Source: Pseudomonadota bacterium
GTDB lineage: Bacteria; Myxococcota_A; UBA796; GCA-2862545
Length of the DNA stretch: 64,000 nt
Direction of reading: 5' to 3'
Assembly: GCA_947475315.1 (NCBI GenBank)
Contig: CANJMY010000003.1
Span: 1 to 64,000 of the forward strand
In this document: positions 7,213 through 14,423 of the stretch, piece by piece
Position numbering within the stretch: the stretch's first letter is position 1
Layout: each line of letters starts with the position of its first letter
The notes under the pieces: generated by a model
What the model was told of the DNA's origin: nothing
Seen by the model: the letters and a program-made list of their open reading frames with translations, nothing else
Database searches by the model: none
Translations under genes and position numbers: made by a program

Positions 7213-7306
7213 TTGGCCTCCCGAGACCGCGTCCTATCCTGTCACACGCGGGCCGACCGCGCTGTCACAGGTTGACGTGCCCCCTGCGTCGGGATGGAGG
7301 GCGAGC

Positions 7307-8632
7307 ATGCAATCTCATCGCAAGCCTCTGACCCGTGATGATCTGACCCGCGCCTACGCCACCTACGGACGCCCGCGGTCCCGTTGGCTGGTGGGGGGCG
7401 AATTCGAGCGCCACCTGCTCGACGGCGAGGGGCGCCCCGCCCCCTACGAGGGCCGCCACGGCGTCCGCGAGCTGCTCCACCGCTACATCGTCGACGGCTG
7501 GATCCCCGCGCGCGAGGGCTCCGGCATCATCGCGCTGGTGAAGAACGGCGCGAGCATCACGCTTGAGCCCGGCGCCCAGTTCGAGCTGTCTGGCCGCCCG
7601 TACAAGGACGCGCAGGGCGTGCTCGCCGAGGCCCGCGCCTTCGCCACCGACCTGGACGCGCGCCTGGAAGGCACGCCCTTCCGCCAGTCGGCGCTCGGCT
7701 TCACGCCGTTCGCGGACATCGACCGCGTCGGCTGGGTGCCCAAGGGCCGCTACGCGATCATGGGCCCGTACCTGCGGTCGGTGGGCAAGCTCGGCCACCA
7801 CATGATGAAGGGCACCTGCGCCACACAGGCCTCGTACGACTTCTCCGACGAGCGCGACGCGTCCGCCAAGGTGCGCGTCGGCATCGTGCTCGCGCCCATC
7901 ATCAGCGCGGCGTTCGCCAACAGCCCGCTCACGAACGGCAAGCCGAACGGCTGGATGACCTTCCGCGGCCACATCTGGACCGACACCGACCCGGCCCGCT
8001 GCGGCTTCCCGGACGCGGCGGAGGACTTCTCGTACGCGCGGTGGATCGACTGGATGCTCGACGTCCCGATGATGTTCACCAAGTCCGGCGGCGTGTGGCG
8101 CCACGCCCACGGCCGCACGTTCCGTCAGTGGATGGAGCAGGGCGACGAGGGCCGCTTCCCCACCGAGAAGGACTGGGACCTGCACCTCACGAGCGTGTTC
8201 CCCGAGGTGCGCGTCAAGCAGCAGATCGAGGTCCGCATGGGCGACTGCGTGCCGCTGGATCTGTCGGCCGCGTTTGTCGCGCTGTGGGAGGGCCTGTTCT
8301 ACGACCGCCGCGCGCTGGATCAGGCGCTCGCGCTGTCGGGCCTGTTCGCGTCGTTCGGATCCAAGGCCGACCGCTTCCACGTCGCCTGCAAGCATGGTCT
8401 CGCCGGATCCATCGGCGGCCGTCGCCTGTCGACCTGGGCCGAGTCGGTGGTCGACATCGCCCGCGATGGCCTGACCCGCGTCGCCCCGCAGGACGTGGCG
8501 CTGCTCGCCCCGCTGGAGCGCGTGGTCGCGTCCGGCGAGAGCCCCGCGGCGCACCTGCTGCGCGCGCTCGGCGGCGACTTCTCGCCCGGCAACGTGCTGG
8601 ATCACACCCGCATCGACGGTACGATCGTCTAG
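7307..8632 (+). CDS. gshA: Glutamate-cysteine ligase, GCS2/plant type
   Basis: A 441-residue enzyme expected to join glutamate and cysteine with ATP, the first step of glutathione synthesis. GGEFERHLL, ALGFTPFADIDRVGWVPKGRY, HHMMKGTCATQASYDF and FANSPLTNGKPNGWMTFRGHIW are hallmarks of the GCS2 family of plants, alphaproteobacteria and myxobacteria, distinct from the E. coli type. The ATG follows GGAGG with 6-bp spacing; an upstream in-frame GTG is less likely. No gshB is visible. A gamma-glutamyl ligase of a related pathway such as EgtA is an alternative. It converges on the DnaA-like gene with a 7-bp gap. Confidence 0.87.
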   Translation: MQSHRKPLTRDDLTRAYATYGRPRSRWLVGGEFERHLLDGEGRPAPYEGRHGVRELLHRYIVDGWIPAREGSGIIALVKNGASITLEPGAQFELSGRPYKDAQGVLAEARAFATDLDARLEGTPFRQSALGFTPFADIDRVGWVPKGRYAIMGPYLRSVGKLGHHMMKGTCATQASYDFSDERDASAKVRVGIVLAPIISAAFANSPLTNGKPNGWMTFRGHIWTDTDPARCGFPDAAEDFSYARWIDWMLDVPMMFTKSGGVWRHAHGRTFRQWMEQGDEGRFPTEKDWDLHLTSVFPEVRVKQQIEVRMGDCVPLDLSAAFVALWEGLFYDRRALDQALALSGLFASFGSKADRFHVACKHGLAGSIGGRRLSTWAESVVDIARDGLTRVAPQDVALLAPLERVVASGESPAAHLLRALGGDFSPGNVLDHTRIDGTIV

Positions 8633-8639
8633 CGCTGGA

Positions 8640-9299
8640 TCACAGCGAGCTGGCGGCCTCGGCCTGACGATCACGGCGCTCGCGCAGCGCCACGATCACG
8701 GCGGAATAGCACCAAGGATCCAGCGAGTCGGTGCCGCTGGCCTCGGAGCGCGGCAGGCCCAGCTCGTCGCAGCAGCGGCGGGCGAAGCGCATGCGCCCGC
8801 TGCGGCTCTCAGGCACGCGCAAGCCGATGGTGGCCAGGCAGCCGTTGGGCACGCTGTCCATGAGCGCGGCGGCGGATCCATCGGCGACCTGCTCACACAC
8901 CACGGTGCGGCGGCGCGATCCGCAGCGCATGGAGAGCAGCTCGCGCAGCAGCGTGAGCGCGAGCGGGCGCGCGGGGAGCAGCTGCAGACCGTCGACCACC
9001 AGACCCGGCGTCTCGAGCACGCGCTCCGACCAGTGGCCCAGGCGCGTGCGCCGCACGACCTCGTCCTGAAAGCTGACCGCGTCGAGAACCAGCGTTCCAC
9101 GCACGGTGTCTGCGCCGCCAAGTCGGCGTGCGACGGCGCTCTTCCCAGAACCCCTCGGGCCAAGGATGAACACGATCGGGCGCTCTGCGACGATGCGACG
9201 GAGCGGTCGCTTGCCGAGGTACTCGGAGCTTGTCCCTGTCACAAAGCCGGGCGCCGGACGTCGAGCCAAAGGATCCCCCGCGAACACCGACCGCGTCAA
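8640..9299 (-). CDS. Small DnaA/Hda-like P-loop ATPase
   Basis: About 219 residues starting at a TTG (9299) preceded by GAGGA; an in-frame start further upstream would cross the palindromes. The opening FVTGTSSEYLG resembles the entry of DnaA domain III (FVxGxSNxLA). Walker A is GPRGSGKS. GLVVDGLQLLPARPLALTLL corresponds to the DnaA strand around Walker B (IDDIQFL), but the second acidic residue is replaced, so ATP hydrolysis may be weak. RTVVCEQVADG, the RVPES segment and RMRFARRCCDELGL match sensor I to sensor II order in DnaA. The DNA-binding domain IV is missing. It could be an Hda-like regulator of replication initiation or a diverged paralogue. Confidence 0.6.
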   Translation of the reverse strand: MTRSVFAGDPLARRPAPGFVTGTSSEYLGKRPLRRIVAERPIVFILGPRGSGKSAVARRLGGADTVRGTLVLDAVSFQDEVVRRTRLGHWSERVLETPGLVVDGLQLLPARPLALTLLRELLSMRCGSRRRTVVCEQVADGSAAALMDSVPNGCLATIGLRVPESRSGRMRFARRCCDELGLPRSEASGTDSLDPWCYSAVIVALRERRDRQAEAASSL

Positions 9300-9310
9300 A
9301 CGCGATCCTC

Positions 9311-9330
9311 GGAAGCTTCCACAGCTGTGG
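9311..9330. promoter_or_regulatory. Two adjoining palindromes before the DnaA-like gene
   Basis: GGAAGCTTCC (9311-9320) and CCACAGCTGTGG (9319-9330) are both perfect palindromes and overlap by two bases. CTGTGGATAT across the right edge resembles half of a DnaA box (TGTGGATAA), with an inverted match on the left (TTCCACAG). They lie between the proposed promoter and the TTG start, about 12 bp from that start, so a bound protein could repress the gene. Confidence 0.45.
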
Positions 9331-9348
9331 ATATCGTCCGCGTCCGCA

Positions 9349-9420: not shown

Positions 9421-9457
9421 GAAACAAGATGAGCACGCCGCCGAAAGCAGCGTGCTC
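9421..9457 (-). terminator. Terminator after the acyl-CoA dehydrogenase gene
   Basis: A perfect 8-bp stem GAGCACGC/GCGTGCTC with an 11-nt loop is followed on the minus strand by the T-rich run ATCTTGTTTC. It starts 18 bp past the acyl-CoA dehydrogenase stop codon. Confidence 0.75.
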
Positions 9458-9475: not shown

Positions 9476-10615
9476 TCAGCCGCCGAGCGTGTTTCGCGCG
9501 ATCACGACGCGCTGGATCTCGGACGTGCCTTCGTACAGCGTGGTGATGCGCGCGTCGCGGTACAGGCGCTCGACCTCGTACTCGCGGCTGAAGCCGTAGC
9601 CGCCGAAGATCTGCACCGCCTCGTAGGCGCAGAAGTTCGCGGTCTCGCTCGCGAGCAGCTTGGCCATCGCGCACTCGGCGCTGGCGGCCTCACCCTTGGA
9701 GCGCAGCGCCGCGGCCTTCCACATCATCAGGCGCGCCGACTCGATCCGGCAGCGCATGTCGGCGATCTTGAACTGGATCGCCTGGAGGTTGGAGATGGGC
9801 TTGCCGAACGCGACGCGCTGGTTGGCGTGGCCGACCGCGAGATCCAACGCGCGCTGCGCGATGCCGAGCGCCTGCGCCGCGACGCCGATGCGGCCGCCGT
9901 CGAGCGTGGCCATGGCGACGGTGAAGCCCTTGCCCTCTTCGTGGAGCATGTTCTCCGCAGGGACCTCAAGGCCCTGGAAGAGCAGCTCGGACGTGCCCGA
10001 GCAGTGGATGCCCATCTTCTCTTCGATCTTGCCGACCGAGAAGCCGGGCCAGGCCTTCTCGACGATGAACGCGCTGATGCCCTTGTGGCGCAGCGCCGGA
10101 TCCTGCGTGGCGTAGGTGACGCAGATGCCCGCCTGCGGGCCGTTCGTGATCCACATCTTGCTGCCGGTCAGCGAGAAGCCACCCGCGGTCTTGGTGGCGC
10201 GGGTCTTGAGCGCGGCGGCGTCGGAGCCGGCCTCGGGCTCGGTGAGCGCGTAGCAGCCGATGGTCTGACCCGACGCGAGCTGGGTCAGGTACTTCTCCTT
10301 CTGCGCGGCGTTGCCGAACTTCAGGATGGGCCAGCCGGCGAGGCTGTTCTGCACCGACATGATGATGCCGACGCCCGCGTCCGCGTAGCAGATCTCTTCG
10401 AGCGCGAGCACGTAGGCCAGCGTGTCCATGCCGGCGCCGCCGTACTCGACCGGGGCGAACACGCCCATCAGGCCGAGCTCGCCAAGCTTCGCGACGATGT
10501 CGACCGGGAACTGGCCCGACTGGTCGCGCGCCGTCGCGCCGGGGAGGATCTCGTTGCGCGCGAATTCACGCGCCATGTCGCGGATGGCGATCTGCTCGTC
10601 GGAGAGGTCAAACAT
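9476..10615 (-). CDS. Acyl-CoA dehydrogenase, short-chain/butyryl type
   Basis: A 379-residue FAD enzyme introducing the 2,3-double bond into acyl-CoA and passing electrons to ETF. Signatures are CYALTEPEAGSDAAALKT and KMWITNG (flavin and substrate region), QAIQFKIADM, QIFGGYGFSREYEVERLYRD, and LYEGTSEIQR. The Glu in the last motif sits where the catalytic base of butyryl-CoA and short-chain dehydrogenases lies. The downstream enoyl-CoA hydratase and nearby 3-hydroxyacyl-CoA dehydrogenase complete a C4 beta-oxidation or butyrate set. A GGGAG-type ribosome binding site precedes the ATG, 18 bp after the hydratase stop codon. Confidence 0.93.
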   Translation of the reverse strand: MFDLSDEQIAIRDMAREFARNEILPGATARDQSGQFPVDIVAKLGELGLMGVFAPVEYGGAGMDTLAYVLALEEICYADAGVGIIMSVQNSLAGWPILKFGNAAQKEKYLTQLASGQTIGCYALTEPEAGSDAAALKTRATKTAGGFSLTGSKMWITNGPQAGICVTYATQDPALRHKGISAFIVEKAWPGFSVGKIEEKMGIHCSGTSELLFQGLEVPAENMLHEEGKGFTVAMATLDGGRIGVAAQALGIAQRALDLAVGHANQRVAFGKPISNLQAIQFKIADMRCRIESARLMMWKAAALRSKGEAASAECAMAKLLASETANFCAYEAVQIFGGYGFSREYEVERLYRDARITTLYEGTSEIQRVVIARNTLGG

Positions 10616-10633: not shown

Positions 10634-11413
10634 TCAACGGCCGGTGTACTGGGGCTCGCGCTTCTCGACGAAGGCGGCCATGCCTTCCTTCTGGTCAGAG
10701 GTCGCGAAGCAGAGGGCGAAGAGGCTGCGCTCGGCCGCGAGGCCGGCGGCGAGCGGGGCGTCGGCGTTCTCATGCAGGGCGCGGCGCACCATACGAACGG
10801 CGAACGGGCCCTTCTTGGCGATGGTGGTGGCCATCTCGAGCGCCGCGTCGAACGCGGAGCCTTCGACCGCGCGGCTGGCGAGGCCGATCGCGTAGGCCTC
10901 CTTGGCGTCCACGATGCGCGCCGTGAGGCACAGGTCCATGGCGATGGCCAGGCCCACGCGGCGCACCAGGCGCTGCGTGCCGCCGAAGCCCGGGATGACG
11001 CCCAGGTTGACCTCGGGCTGGCCGAACTTGGCGCGCGCGCCGGCGACGATCATGTCGCAGCACAGCGCAAGCTCGCAGCCGCCGCCCAGCGCGAAGCCGT
11101 CGACCGCCGCGATCACGGGCACCGGGCAGGACTCAATGGCCGCGGCGAGGTCCTGGCCCTTGCGGGCGAAGGCCTCCGCCTGGGCGACCGTGAAGTCGCG
11201 CATGCCGGGGATGTCGGCGCCGGCCACGAAGGCCTTGCCGCCGGCGCCCGTCACCACGACGGCGCGCAGGCCCTCGCGGTGCGCGTGTGTCTGGAAGGCC
11301 AGCACGAGCGCGTCCATGACATCGGCGTTCAGGGCGTTGAGGGCCGCAGGGCGGTTGACGGTCAGGACGGCGATCGCGTCGCGGTCCTCCCACAAGACGA
11401 CGGGCTCGGACAT
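10634..11413 (-). CDS. Enoyl-CoA hydratase/crotonase
   Basis: A 259-residue crotonase-fold enzyme that hydrates 2-enoyl-CoA to 3-hydroxyacyl-CoA. KAFVAGADIPGM supplies the first oxyanion-hole strand, and IAAVDGFALGGGCELALCCD contains the second oxyanion glycine and the first catalytic Glu. PEVNLGVIPGFGGTQRLVR carries the second catalytic Glu. The ATG at 11413 has GGAG upstream. The acyl-CoA dehydrogenase gene follows 18 bp downstream, so they should form one operon. Confidence 0.93.
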   Translation of the reverse strand: MSEPVVLWEDRDAIAVLTVNRPAALNALNADVMDALVLAFQTHAHREGLRAVVVTGAGGKAFVAGADIPGMRDFTVAQAEAFARKGQDLAAAIESCPVPVIAAVDGFALGGGCELALCCDMIVAGARAKFGQPEVNLGVIPGFGGTQRLVRRVGLAIAMDLCLTARIVDAKEAYAIGLASRAVEGSAFDAALEMATTIAKKGPFAVRMVRRALHENADAPLAAGLAAERSLFALCFATSDQKEGMAAFVEKREPQYTGR

Positions 11414-11438
11414 GACGCGCTCCGGAAGGGCGCCAGCA

Positions 11439-11843
11439 CTAACGATGCGCCCCGCCTCGCGTCCACCAACCGCCACGGGCAATCCGCCACGCCCAGGCCA
11501 GCAGCACCAGCTGGAGCGGCAGCCGGGCCCACGCCGCGAACGACGACACCGGCGACTCCGGCACCGGCTGGATGTGGTTCATCGCCATGTTGAGGTTGGC
11601 CGGAAACACTGCGATGAACAACGCGAACAGGCCCCAGGCCGCCGCCACGCGCGTGCGCGGGATCAACAGCCCTACGCCCCCTGCGACCTCGAAGAAGCCG
11701 CTGATCTGGACCAGCAGCAGCGGCGCCGGGAGGTACGCCGGCACGATTCGCACGAACGGATCCGGCGAGACAAAGTGAAGCACCCCCACCGCGATCATCG
11801 CGACCGCCAGCAGCCCGATCCCTAGACGTTCTCCCCAGCTCAT
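11439..11843 (-). CDS. DoxX-like membrane protein
   Basis: A 134-residue protein with about four membrane helices (LGIGLLAVAMIAVGVLHFV, LLLVQISGFFEVAGGVGLLI, AAWGLFALFIAVFPANLNMA, and a C-terminal helix). The motif GFFEVAGGVGLLIPRTRVAAAWGL is typical of DoxX/DoxX-like quinone-associated membrane proteins. Its ATG overlaps the stop of the DUF1189 gene (ATGA), so the two are translationally coupled. It may relate to redox or sulfur metabolism, but no partner proves that. Confidence 0.75.
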   Translation of the reverse strand: MSWGERLGIGLLAVAMIAVGVLHFVSPDPFVRIVPAYLPAPLLLVQISGFFEVAGGVGLLIPRTRVAAAWGLFALFIAVFPANLNMAMNHIQPVPESPVSSFAAWARLPLQLVLLAWAWRIARGGWWTRGGAHR

Positions 11844-13299: not shown

Positions 13300-14148
<849 letters not shown>

Positions 14149-14234
14149 GTGTCCTCCGGAGGGGCCCGTGTAACCGGGCCCTCGCTCCCGACGAGGGCCA
14201 GGGTGGTTACAGTCGCCACAGCGGGGAAACACAC

Positions 14235-14423
14235 GTGTCGGAAGGCAGGCAGCAAGGGGATCTGGCAACGGTGGTCATCGGCGTGGTGCTGGGGCTGGCG
14301 TGCGCGTGGATCCTGCGTCTGCCAGCCTGCATCACGGGCGAGCAGCTGCCGCCCGCCCCGCGCAATCCATGGGACATCCCCGGTCGCCAGGACTCTGACG
14401 GCGGCGTGAAGAGCCCGCGCTAG
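14235..14423 (+). CDS. Small single-pass membrane protein, hypothetical
   Basis: A 62-residue reading frame starting with GTG. It has a polar N-terminus, one hydrophobic segment (VVIGVVLGLACAWIL) and a Pro-rich tail (PPAPRNPWDIPG). A short purine stretch GGGGAAA lies about 8 bp upstream. It is divergent from the 3-hydroxybutyryl-CoA dehydrogenase gene and precedes the lipoprotein gene. I recognise no family; the clean membrane segment and isolated position make a real gene plausible. Confidence 0.45.
   Translation: MSEGRQQGDLATVVIGVVLGLACAWILRLPACITGEQLPPAPRNPWDIPGRQDSDGGVKSPR

Follow-up and report, generated by a model that had tools for sequence, protein, structure and literature searches.

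A predicted DnaA domain III-like AAA+ protein without a DNA-binding domain, encoded behind an acyl-CoA dehydrogenase gene in one bacterial order

Introduction

AAA+ proteins of the DnaA branch act on DNA, on helicases or on DnaA itself, and to our knowledge no metabolic use of the initiator branch has been described before. The window, by which we mean the whole stretch of 64,000 nucleotides that was analysed, contains a gene that a sequence-only reading took to encode a DnaA domain III-like ATPase without a DNA-binding domain. A tuning of replication initiation in the manner of Hda was suggested for it, with the proviso that diverged paralogues could have other roles. The locus thus raises the question of whether an initiator-type domain on its own serves replication or something else. 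The original observation largely holds, and the interpretation that came with it is supported in part: of the two roles offered, that of a diverged paralogue with another function fits best.

The gene and its distribution

8640..9299, minus strand: AAA+ gene encoding protein P0002 of 219 aa; open frame with order-wide orthologues, under purifying selection; TTG start assumed

The gene lies on contig C3 of a 3.48 Mb genome rated 85% complete. With TTG 9299 as its start, the open frame has 219 codons and its stop is at 8640-8642. TTG 9395 and GTG 9287 are candidate starts as well, and conservation in the family sets in near residue 17. The plus-strand frame at 8640-9299 is likewise open, and the family was defined from the minus-strand protein, not from that frame. 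Comparison with the same-genus (nearest) orthologue shows 31 synonymous and 13 non-synonymous codon changes, which gives a dN of 0.031, a dS of 0.216 and a dN/dS of 0.14. This ratio and the presence of orthologues throughout the order indicate a real gene, more than a chance frame, that is under purifying selection.

With a single sequence as query, relatives turned up in 53 of 58 genomes. With A1, a profile and alignment of 53 sequences on which the family-wide residue counts are based (n=53), a near-full-length orthologue was found in 58 of the 63 genomes of the same order; the gene is missing from G011, G019, G024, G033 and G042. The genomes of the relatives are partly incomplete, and their gene calls rest on homology, not on annotation. 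Among the eight genomes from the rest of the class, six have weak partial matches to the A1 profile and two have nothing. In a sample of 282 genomes from the phylum, the profile found no full-length member outside the order with an E of 1e-8 or below. The gene is confined to one order as far as searched, the profile search having covered one phylum. A scan of genome contigs for the gene returned the same-genus record only, plasmids gave no match to the protein, and defence and phage models gave only weak matches in the P-loop region. The family has no curated model, and no paper was recognised, by title and abstract, as describing it.

The sole hits of the family profile below 1e-8 outside the order, again among the 282 genomes of the phylum, are three proteins of one other family in the phylum, f13, that were read as DnaA from their sequence:

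L103 1719-3482: protein read as DnaA
L104 1642-3357: protein read as DnaA
L105 1560-3296: protein read as DnaA

Motifs of the ATPase core

9138..9161, minus strand: Walker A GPRGSGKS, residues 47-54; G47 and G52 invariant
8976..9002, minus strand: degenerate Walker B LVVDGLQLL, residues 100-108; second acid not in the window protein
8811..8822, minus strand: LRVP, end of the last core strand, residues 160-163; L160 and P163 invariant
8706..8714, minus strand: W-x-Y of the C-terminal lid, residues 196-198; W196 and Y198 invariant in 53/53

The Walker A motif had been called intact, and it is: the pattern GxxxxGK[ST] is present, and position 53 is K in 50 of the 53 sequences and R in three. The loss of one acidic residue from Walker B, noticed in the window protein (D103-G104), proves to be nearly family-wide. 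The first acid is D or E in 51/53, while the second, which completes the pattern hhhhD[DE], is found in 4/53. Further along the core, T occupies position 132 in 52/53 and Q or E position 136 in 44/53; these positions could serve as sensor 1. The box VII arginine is not conserved, R being present in at most 4/53 at any of columns 147-152, which would be the box VII columns by our own registration of the last core strand on DnaA. At column 155, 31/53 members have R and the window protein has L. R125 is invariant in A1, as are L160, P163, W196 and Y198. What is lost in Walker B and box VII may be made up for elsewhere.

The protein ends after the lid, and no DNA-binding domain IV was found, its Pfam hits including no domain IV family. 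The core is basic, with a mean net charge of +4.8 per 100 residues (range -3.9 to +9.4), compared with -0.8 for DnaA domain III and -0.6 for RuvB from the same order (30 sequences each). In four f4 members (L013, L016, L018 and L019) the C-terminal lid segment occurs twice, and arginine-rich tails are present.

Predicted fold and sequence kinship

Two AlphaFold2 models were compared with known structures. Model 1, from A1, has a pLDDT of 93.3; model 2, from A2 (a member with 39% identity to the window protein), has a pLDDT of 94.8 and is not fully independent of the first because most of the alignment is common to both. In Foldseek, DnaA chains (2z4r, E 6.4e-6) take the first six ranks among the PDB hits of model 1 and Hda the eighth; DnaA again ranks first for model 2. 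In VIA-align, model 1 matches DnaA domain III (2z4r) with Z 13.1 (rmsd 3.1, 188 aligned), ahead of p97, the best non-DnaA structure, with Z 11.5 and Hda with Z 11.2 (rmsd 5.3, 180 aligned). For model 2, DnaA domain III is again first (Z 12.1, rmsd 4.3, 183 aligned), followed by Hda as the best non-DnaA structure (Z 10.7) and FtsH (Z 10.2). DnaA thus leads the best AAA+ protein other than DnaA and Hda by 1.6 and 1.9 Z units in models 1 and 2, respectively. Hda is tied with other AAA+ proteins, since its Z values lie within 1 of those of p97 and FtsH. The 50 VIA-align matches listed for each model are all AAA+ proteins, clamp loaders included, under class names that are in part our assumption.

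The predicted order of strands and helices is that of DnaA domain III, and the alignment of model 1 to 2z4r, a domain III structure, extends to model residue 217 of 219. The statement that the later motifs follow the DnaA order is borne out by this predicted order and fails at the box VII arginine and at the lid, which ends in the invariant W-x-Y. Both models have two predicted helices after the second strand and before that of Walker B, a place where other AAA+ proteins can have helices too. An extra helix at this place, the ISM, belongs to the initiator/loader clade according to the part of the source consulted (PMC4887207). A DnaA domain III-like AAA+ protein is the best but not an overwhelming placement of the predicted models, and both support the domain III-like fold without a DNA-binding domain that had been read from the sequence. 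AAA+ domains of the DnaC/IstB helicase-loader type are a weaker match than DnaA in both structure searches, although IstB 5bq5 aligns (Foldseek E 4.6e-4; VIA-align Z 9.6) and the IstB Pfam model weakly matches 6/53 members. A P-loop kinase is dismissed, as kinase structures reach a Foldseek TM of about 0.3 vs 0.63 for DnaA and no kinase is among the 50 VIA-align matches listed for either model. Adenylate kinase and AAA_33 models match the window protein and the 53 members weakly.

Sequence profiles alone do not single out DnaA, and their evidence on kinship is mixed. The window protein reaches the cut-off of no family in Pfam or NCBIfam; across the 53 members, general AAA models give weak matches. 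PF00308 (Bac_DnaA) is absent from the hits of the window protein at E up to 1, and it is not among the 25 commonest of the 32 families matched by the 53 members. The RuvB profile scores more members than the DnaA profile (16/53 vs 2/53 at E<0.01); hhalign with the family profile points the other way, with 31.5 for DnaA and 26.0 for RuvB, as do the three f13 proteins read as DnaA. For the most part, the top hits of the family profile among PDB sequences are other NTPases that match at Walker A, and none of the best 60 of 430 is a DnaA. A 198-column profile alignment with DnaA has the N-terminal box (FVTGTSSEYLG against FVVGECNRLVH), Walker A and Walker B in register. A better match to an unrelated P-loop family is ambiguous by sequence, given the larger number of members that the RuvB profile scores; by structure, where DnaA domain III comes first in both models, there is none.

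The acyl-CoA neighbourhood

9476..10615, minus strand: acyl-CoA dehydrogenase gene, the constant upstream partner (Pfam; synteny)
10634..11482, minus strand: enoyl-CoA hydratase-type gene (ECH; synteny, name read from the sequence, no family search)
13300..14268, minus strand: 3-hydroxyacyl-CoA dehydrogenase-type gene (HBD; synteny, name read from the sequence, no family search)

An acyl-CoA dehydrogenase gene ends within 1 kb upstream of the AAA+ gene, on the same strand, in 49 of the 51 informative genomes, those that have 900 nt or more upstream (which leaves out G032 and G036, with 2 and 26 nt). The two exceptions are G013, where a B12-binding subunit gene and the dehydrogenase gene adjoin the AAA+ gene in opposite orientation, and G034, where the dehydrogenase is missing and HBD, ECH and the B12 subunit lie upstream. 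HBD- and ECH-type genes are found further upstream in 27 of the 41 genomes with at least 4.5 kb there; in the other 14 they are not both present, so that the dehydrogenase is the sole near-constant partner. Downstream, 40 genomes offer 2.5 kb or more, and the best-shared gene family occurs in 16 of them (18/53 overall), a rough control only, because the clustering was rougher. In 31/53 genomes the kilobase upstream also encodes, on the same strand, a short B12-binding subunit, of the methylmalonyl-CoA mutase type by a name read from the sequence with no family search; such a subunit gene often stands between the dehydrogenase gene and the AAA+ gene. No helicase or transposase gene was seen beside the AAA+ gene in the window. 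Convergent with it, at 7277-8632, is a plant-type glutamate-cysteine ligase-like gene (Pfam GCS2, E 7.8e-49; below NCBIfam cut-offs).

The cluster also exists without the AAA+ gene. G011 and G019 have kept it with the B12 gene, and G033 has kept dehydrogenase, ECH and HBD, which means that the dehydrogenase can do without the AAA+ protein. G064, from another order of the same class, has HBD, ECH, dehydrogenase and B12 genes and no AAA+ gene. G024 and G042 lack the AAA+ gene and likewise have no match to the dehydrogenase at E up to 1e-100. A 27-residue match in G011, near the expected place and in a different frame from the B12 gene that it overlaps, was taken as noise. Most simply, the cluster would be the older of the two, and the AAA+ gene would have been added to it in the order's ancestor.

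The gaps between the AAA+ gene and its upstream gene are short in several genomes (G023, G029, G034 and G048), which suits a single transcript there. In the window, the intergenic stretch of 176 nt behind the dehydrogenase gene contains a hairpin, and the AAA+ gene may therefore have a promoter of its own. The hairpin, at 9431-9457 after the dehydrogenase stop, has a perfect 8-bp stem (GAGCACGC/GCGTGCTC) and an 11-base loop. Promoter and terminator scans returned 0 sites, the terminator scan admitting loops of up to 8 bases.

A proposed switch or scaffold for acyl-CoA enzymes

From the computed gene, fold prediction, residue losses, distribution and synteny, we tentatively prefer to see here an initiator-type AAA+ protein that binds ATP, hydrolyses it poorly and acts as a switch or scaffold for a short-chain acyl-CoA module, not in replication. 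The protein would be a single-domain P-loop protein of initiator-type fold, without the N-terminal and DNA-binding domains of DnaA. It most likely binds ATP; hydrolysis would be weak or nil, and the protein would probably have a regulatory role as a nucleotide-dependent switch or scaffold. The partner is most likely an enzyme of the short-chain acyl-CoA module, the dehydrogenase first, because the AAA+ gene is fixed behind the dehydrogenase gene in nearly all informative genomes and because in many it lies behind the B12-binding mutase-type subunit. Against this stands that synteny is no proof of shared function. A bolder version, in which a DnaA-type AAA+ domain has left replication throughout the order and become an ATP-sensing regulator or chaperone of the acyl-CoA dehydrogenase and its B12-mutase partner, seems to us unlikely. 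An AAA+ family locked to an acyl-CoA dehydrogenase gene would widen the DnaA branch to metabolism; alternatively, it would show initiator-type domains linking metabolic state to another process.

A serious but doubtful alternative is that this is a lineage-specific gene whose role is unrelated to its neighbours, for example that of a basic AAA+ protein that binds nucleic acid or membranes, and that the gene order is merely stable. The basic core and the arginine-rich tails of several members suit such a role, as do the 176 nt and hairpin in the window and the inverted position of the AAA+ gene relative to the cluster in G013. Against it stands the imbalance between the two sides of the gene (49/51 upstream vs 16/40 at best downstream).

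A possible role in replication

That the protein regulates replication, as Hda does or by otherwise modulating DnaA through AAA+ contacts, is improbable. DnaA domain III is its nearest structure, and DnaA itself is encoded in 62/63 genomes of the order. With DnaA domain III it shares strand and helix order, the aligned N-terminal box and Walker A and B; unlike DnaA, it has no domains I, II and IV, lacks the second Walker B acid and a conserved box VII arginine, ends its lid in W-x-Y and is encoded in an acyl-CoA cluster. As a stand-alone DnaA-type AAA+ domain of similar length it also resembles Hda and HdaA. Both of these need a clamp hexapeptide and the box VII arginine, according to the part of the source consulted (PMC3836487). 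A clamp-binding hexapeptide of the QLSLPL type before the P-loop was found in 0/53 members with a strict pattern, 1/53 (L008) with a relaxed one and 10/53 with a very loose one; the window protein has none under any of the three, and the start codons of the members are uncertain.

TIGR03420 (DnaA_homol_Hda) is absent from the hits of the window protein at E up to 1, and a search of its own genome with this model did not list the AAA+ gene. No locus in that genome exceeds the Hda model cut-off, which favours a replication regulator; the missing TIGR03420 and PF00308 matches and the acyl-CoA neighbours speak against the AAA+ gene being one. Since the window protein lacks the clamp hexapeptide, the box VII arginine and any Hda or DnaA model match, and the family conserves neither the hexapeptide nor the arginine, we reject membership of Hda or DnaA; the suggested Hda-like role is not supported.

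The PF00308 search of the same genome found C60 and C24 and not the AAA+ gene. The dnaA gene is on C60, so that, as far as the assembly shows, the remark that no dnaA lies nearby was right. Besides the normal DnaA, a second DnaA-type (PF00308) match occurs in three f2 genomes:

G021:C35:16768-17238: second PF00308 match
G054:C49:141408-141860: second PF00308 match
G061:C1:11730-12212: second PF00308 match

Just upstream of the assumed start of the AAA+ gene, at 9318-9331, is a perfect 14-bp palindrome, TCCACAGCTGTGGA. It consists of two DnaA-box-like halves, head-to-head. One-mismatch DnaA-box-like sites adjoin the AAA+ gene in 4/61 loci, all from its own genus; L024 and L054 have such a site 500-600 nt upstream, and the remaining loci have none within 700 nt (L018 and L035 offer only 32 and 2 nt). 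Sites next to the gene in its own genus only are not a family feature, and this too counts against a replication regulator.

A possible mutase accessory factor

MeaB is a known chaperone of the mutase, and its genes are often near mutase genes. Quite improbable, in our judgement, is that the AAA+ protein is likewise an accessory factor, for assembly or reactivation, of a split B12-dependent acyl-CoA mutase whose small subunit is often encoded just before it. The frequent B12 subunit upstream (31/53) and the close spacing in G034 and G029 favour this, and like MeaB the protein is a P-loop protein whose gene is often beside a mutase-type subunit. The B12 subunit is, however, missing upstream in the window's own genus, in five more f1 genomes (G002, G003, G006, G014 and G015), in G037 and in the informative f3, f4 and f5 genomes. 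Nor do the profiles suggest kinship, comparison with MeaB giving nothing (hhalign score 3.3, probability 0.1) and a MeaB profile from 10 sequences of the order matching 0/53 members at E<0.01. The simple form of the idea, a replacement of MeaB, is ruled out by MeaB matches over the cut-off in 63/63 genomes of the order and by mutase matches in 62/63. The matches to MeaB, the GTPase chaperone of methylmalonyl-CoA mutase, lie elsewhere in these genomes than the AAA+ gene. The MeaB match is weak in G044, and in several genomes, the window's own included, the best one is part of a fused frame, about 1,100 aa long, that matches mutase as well.
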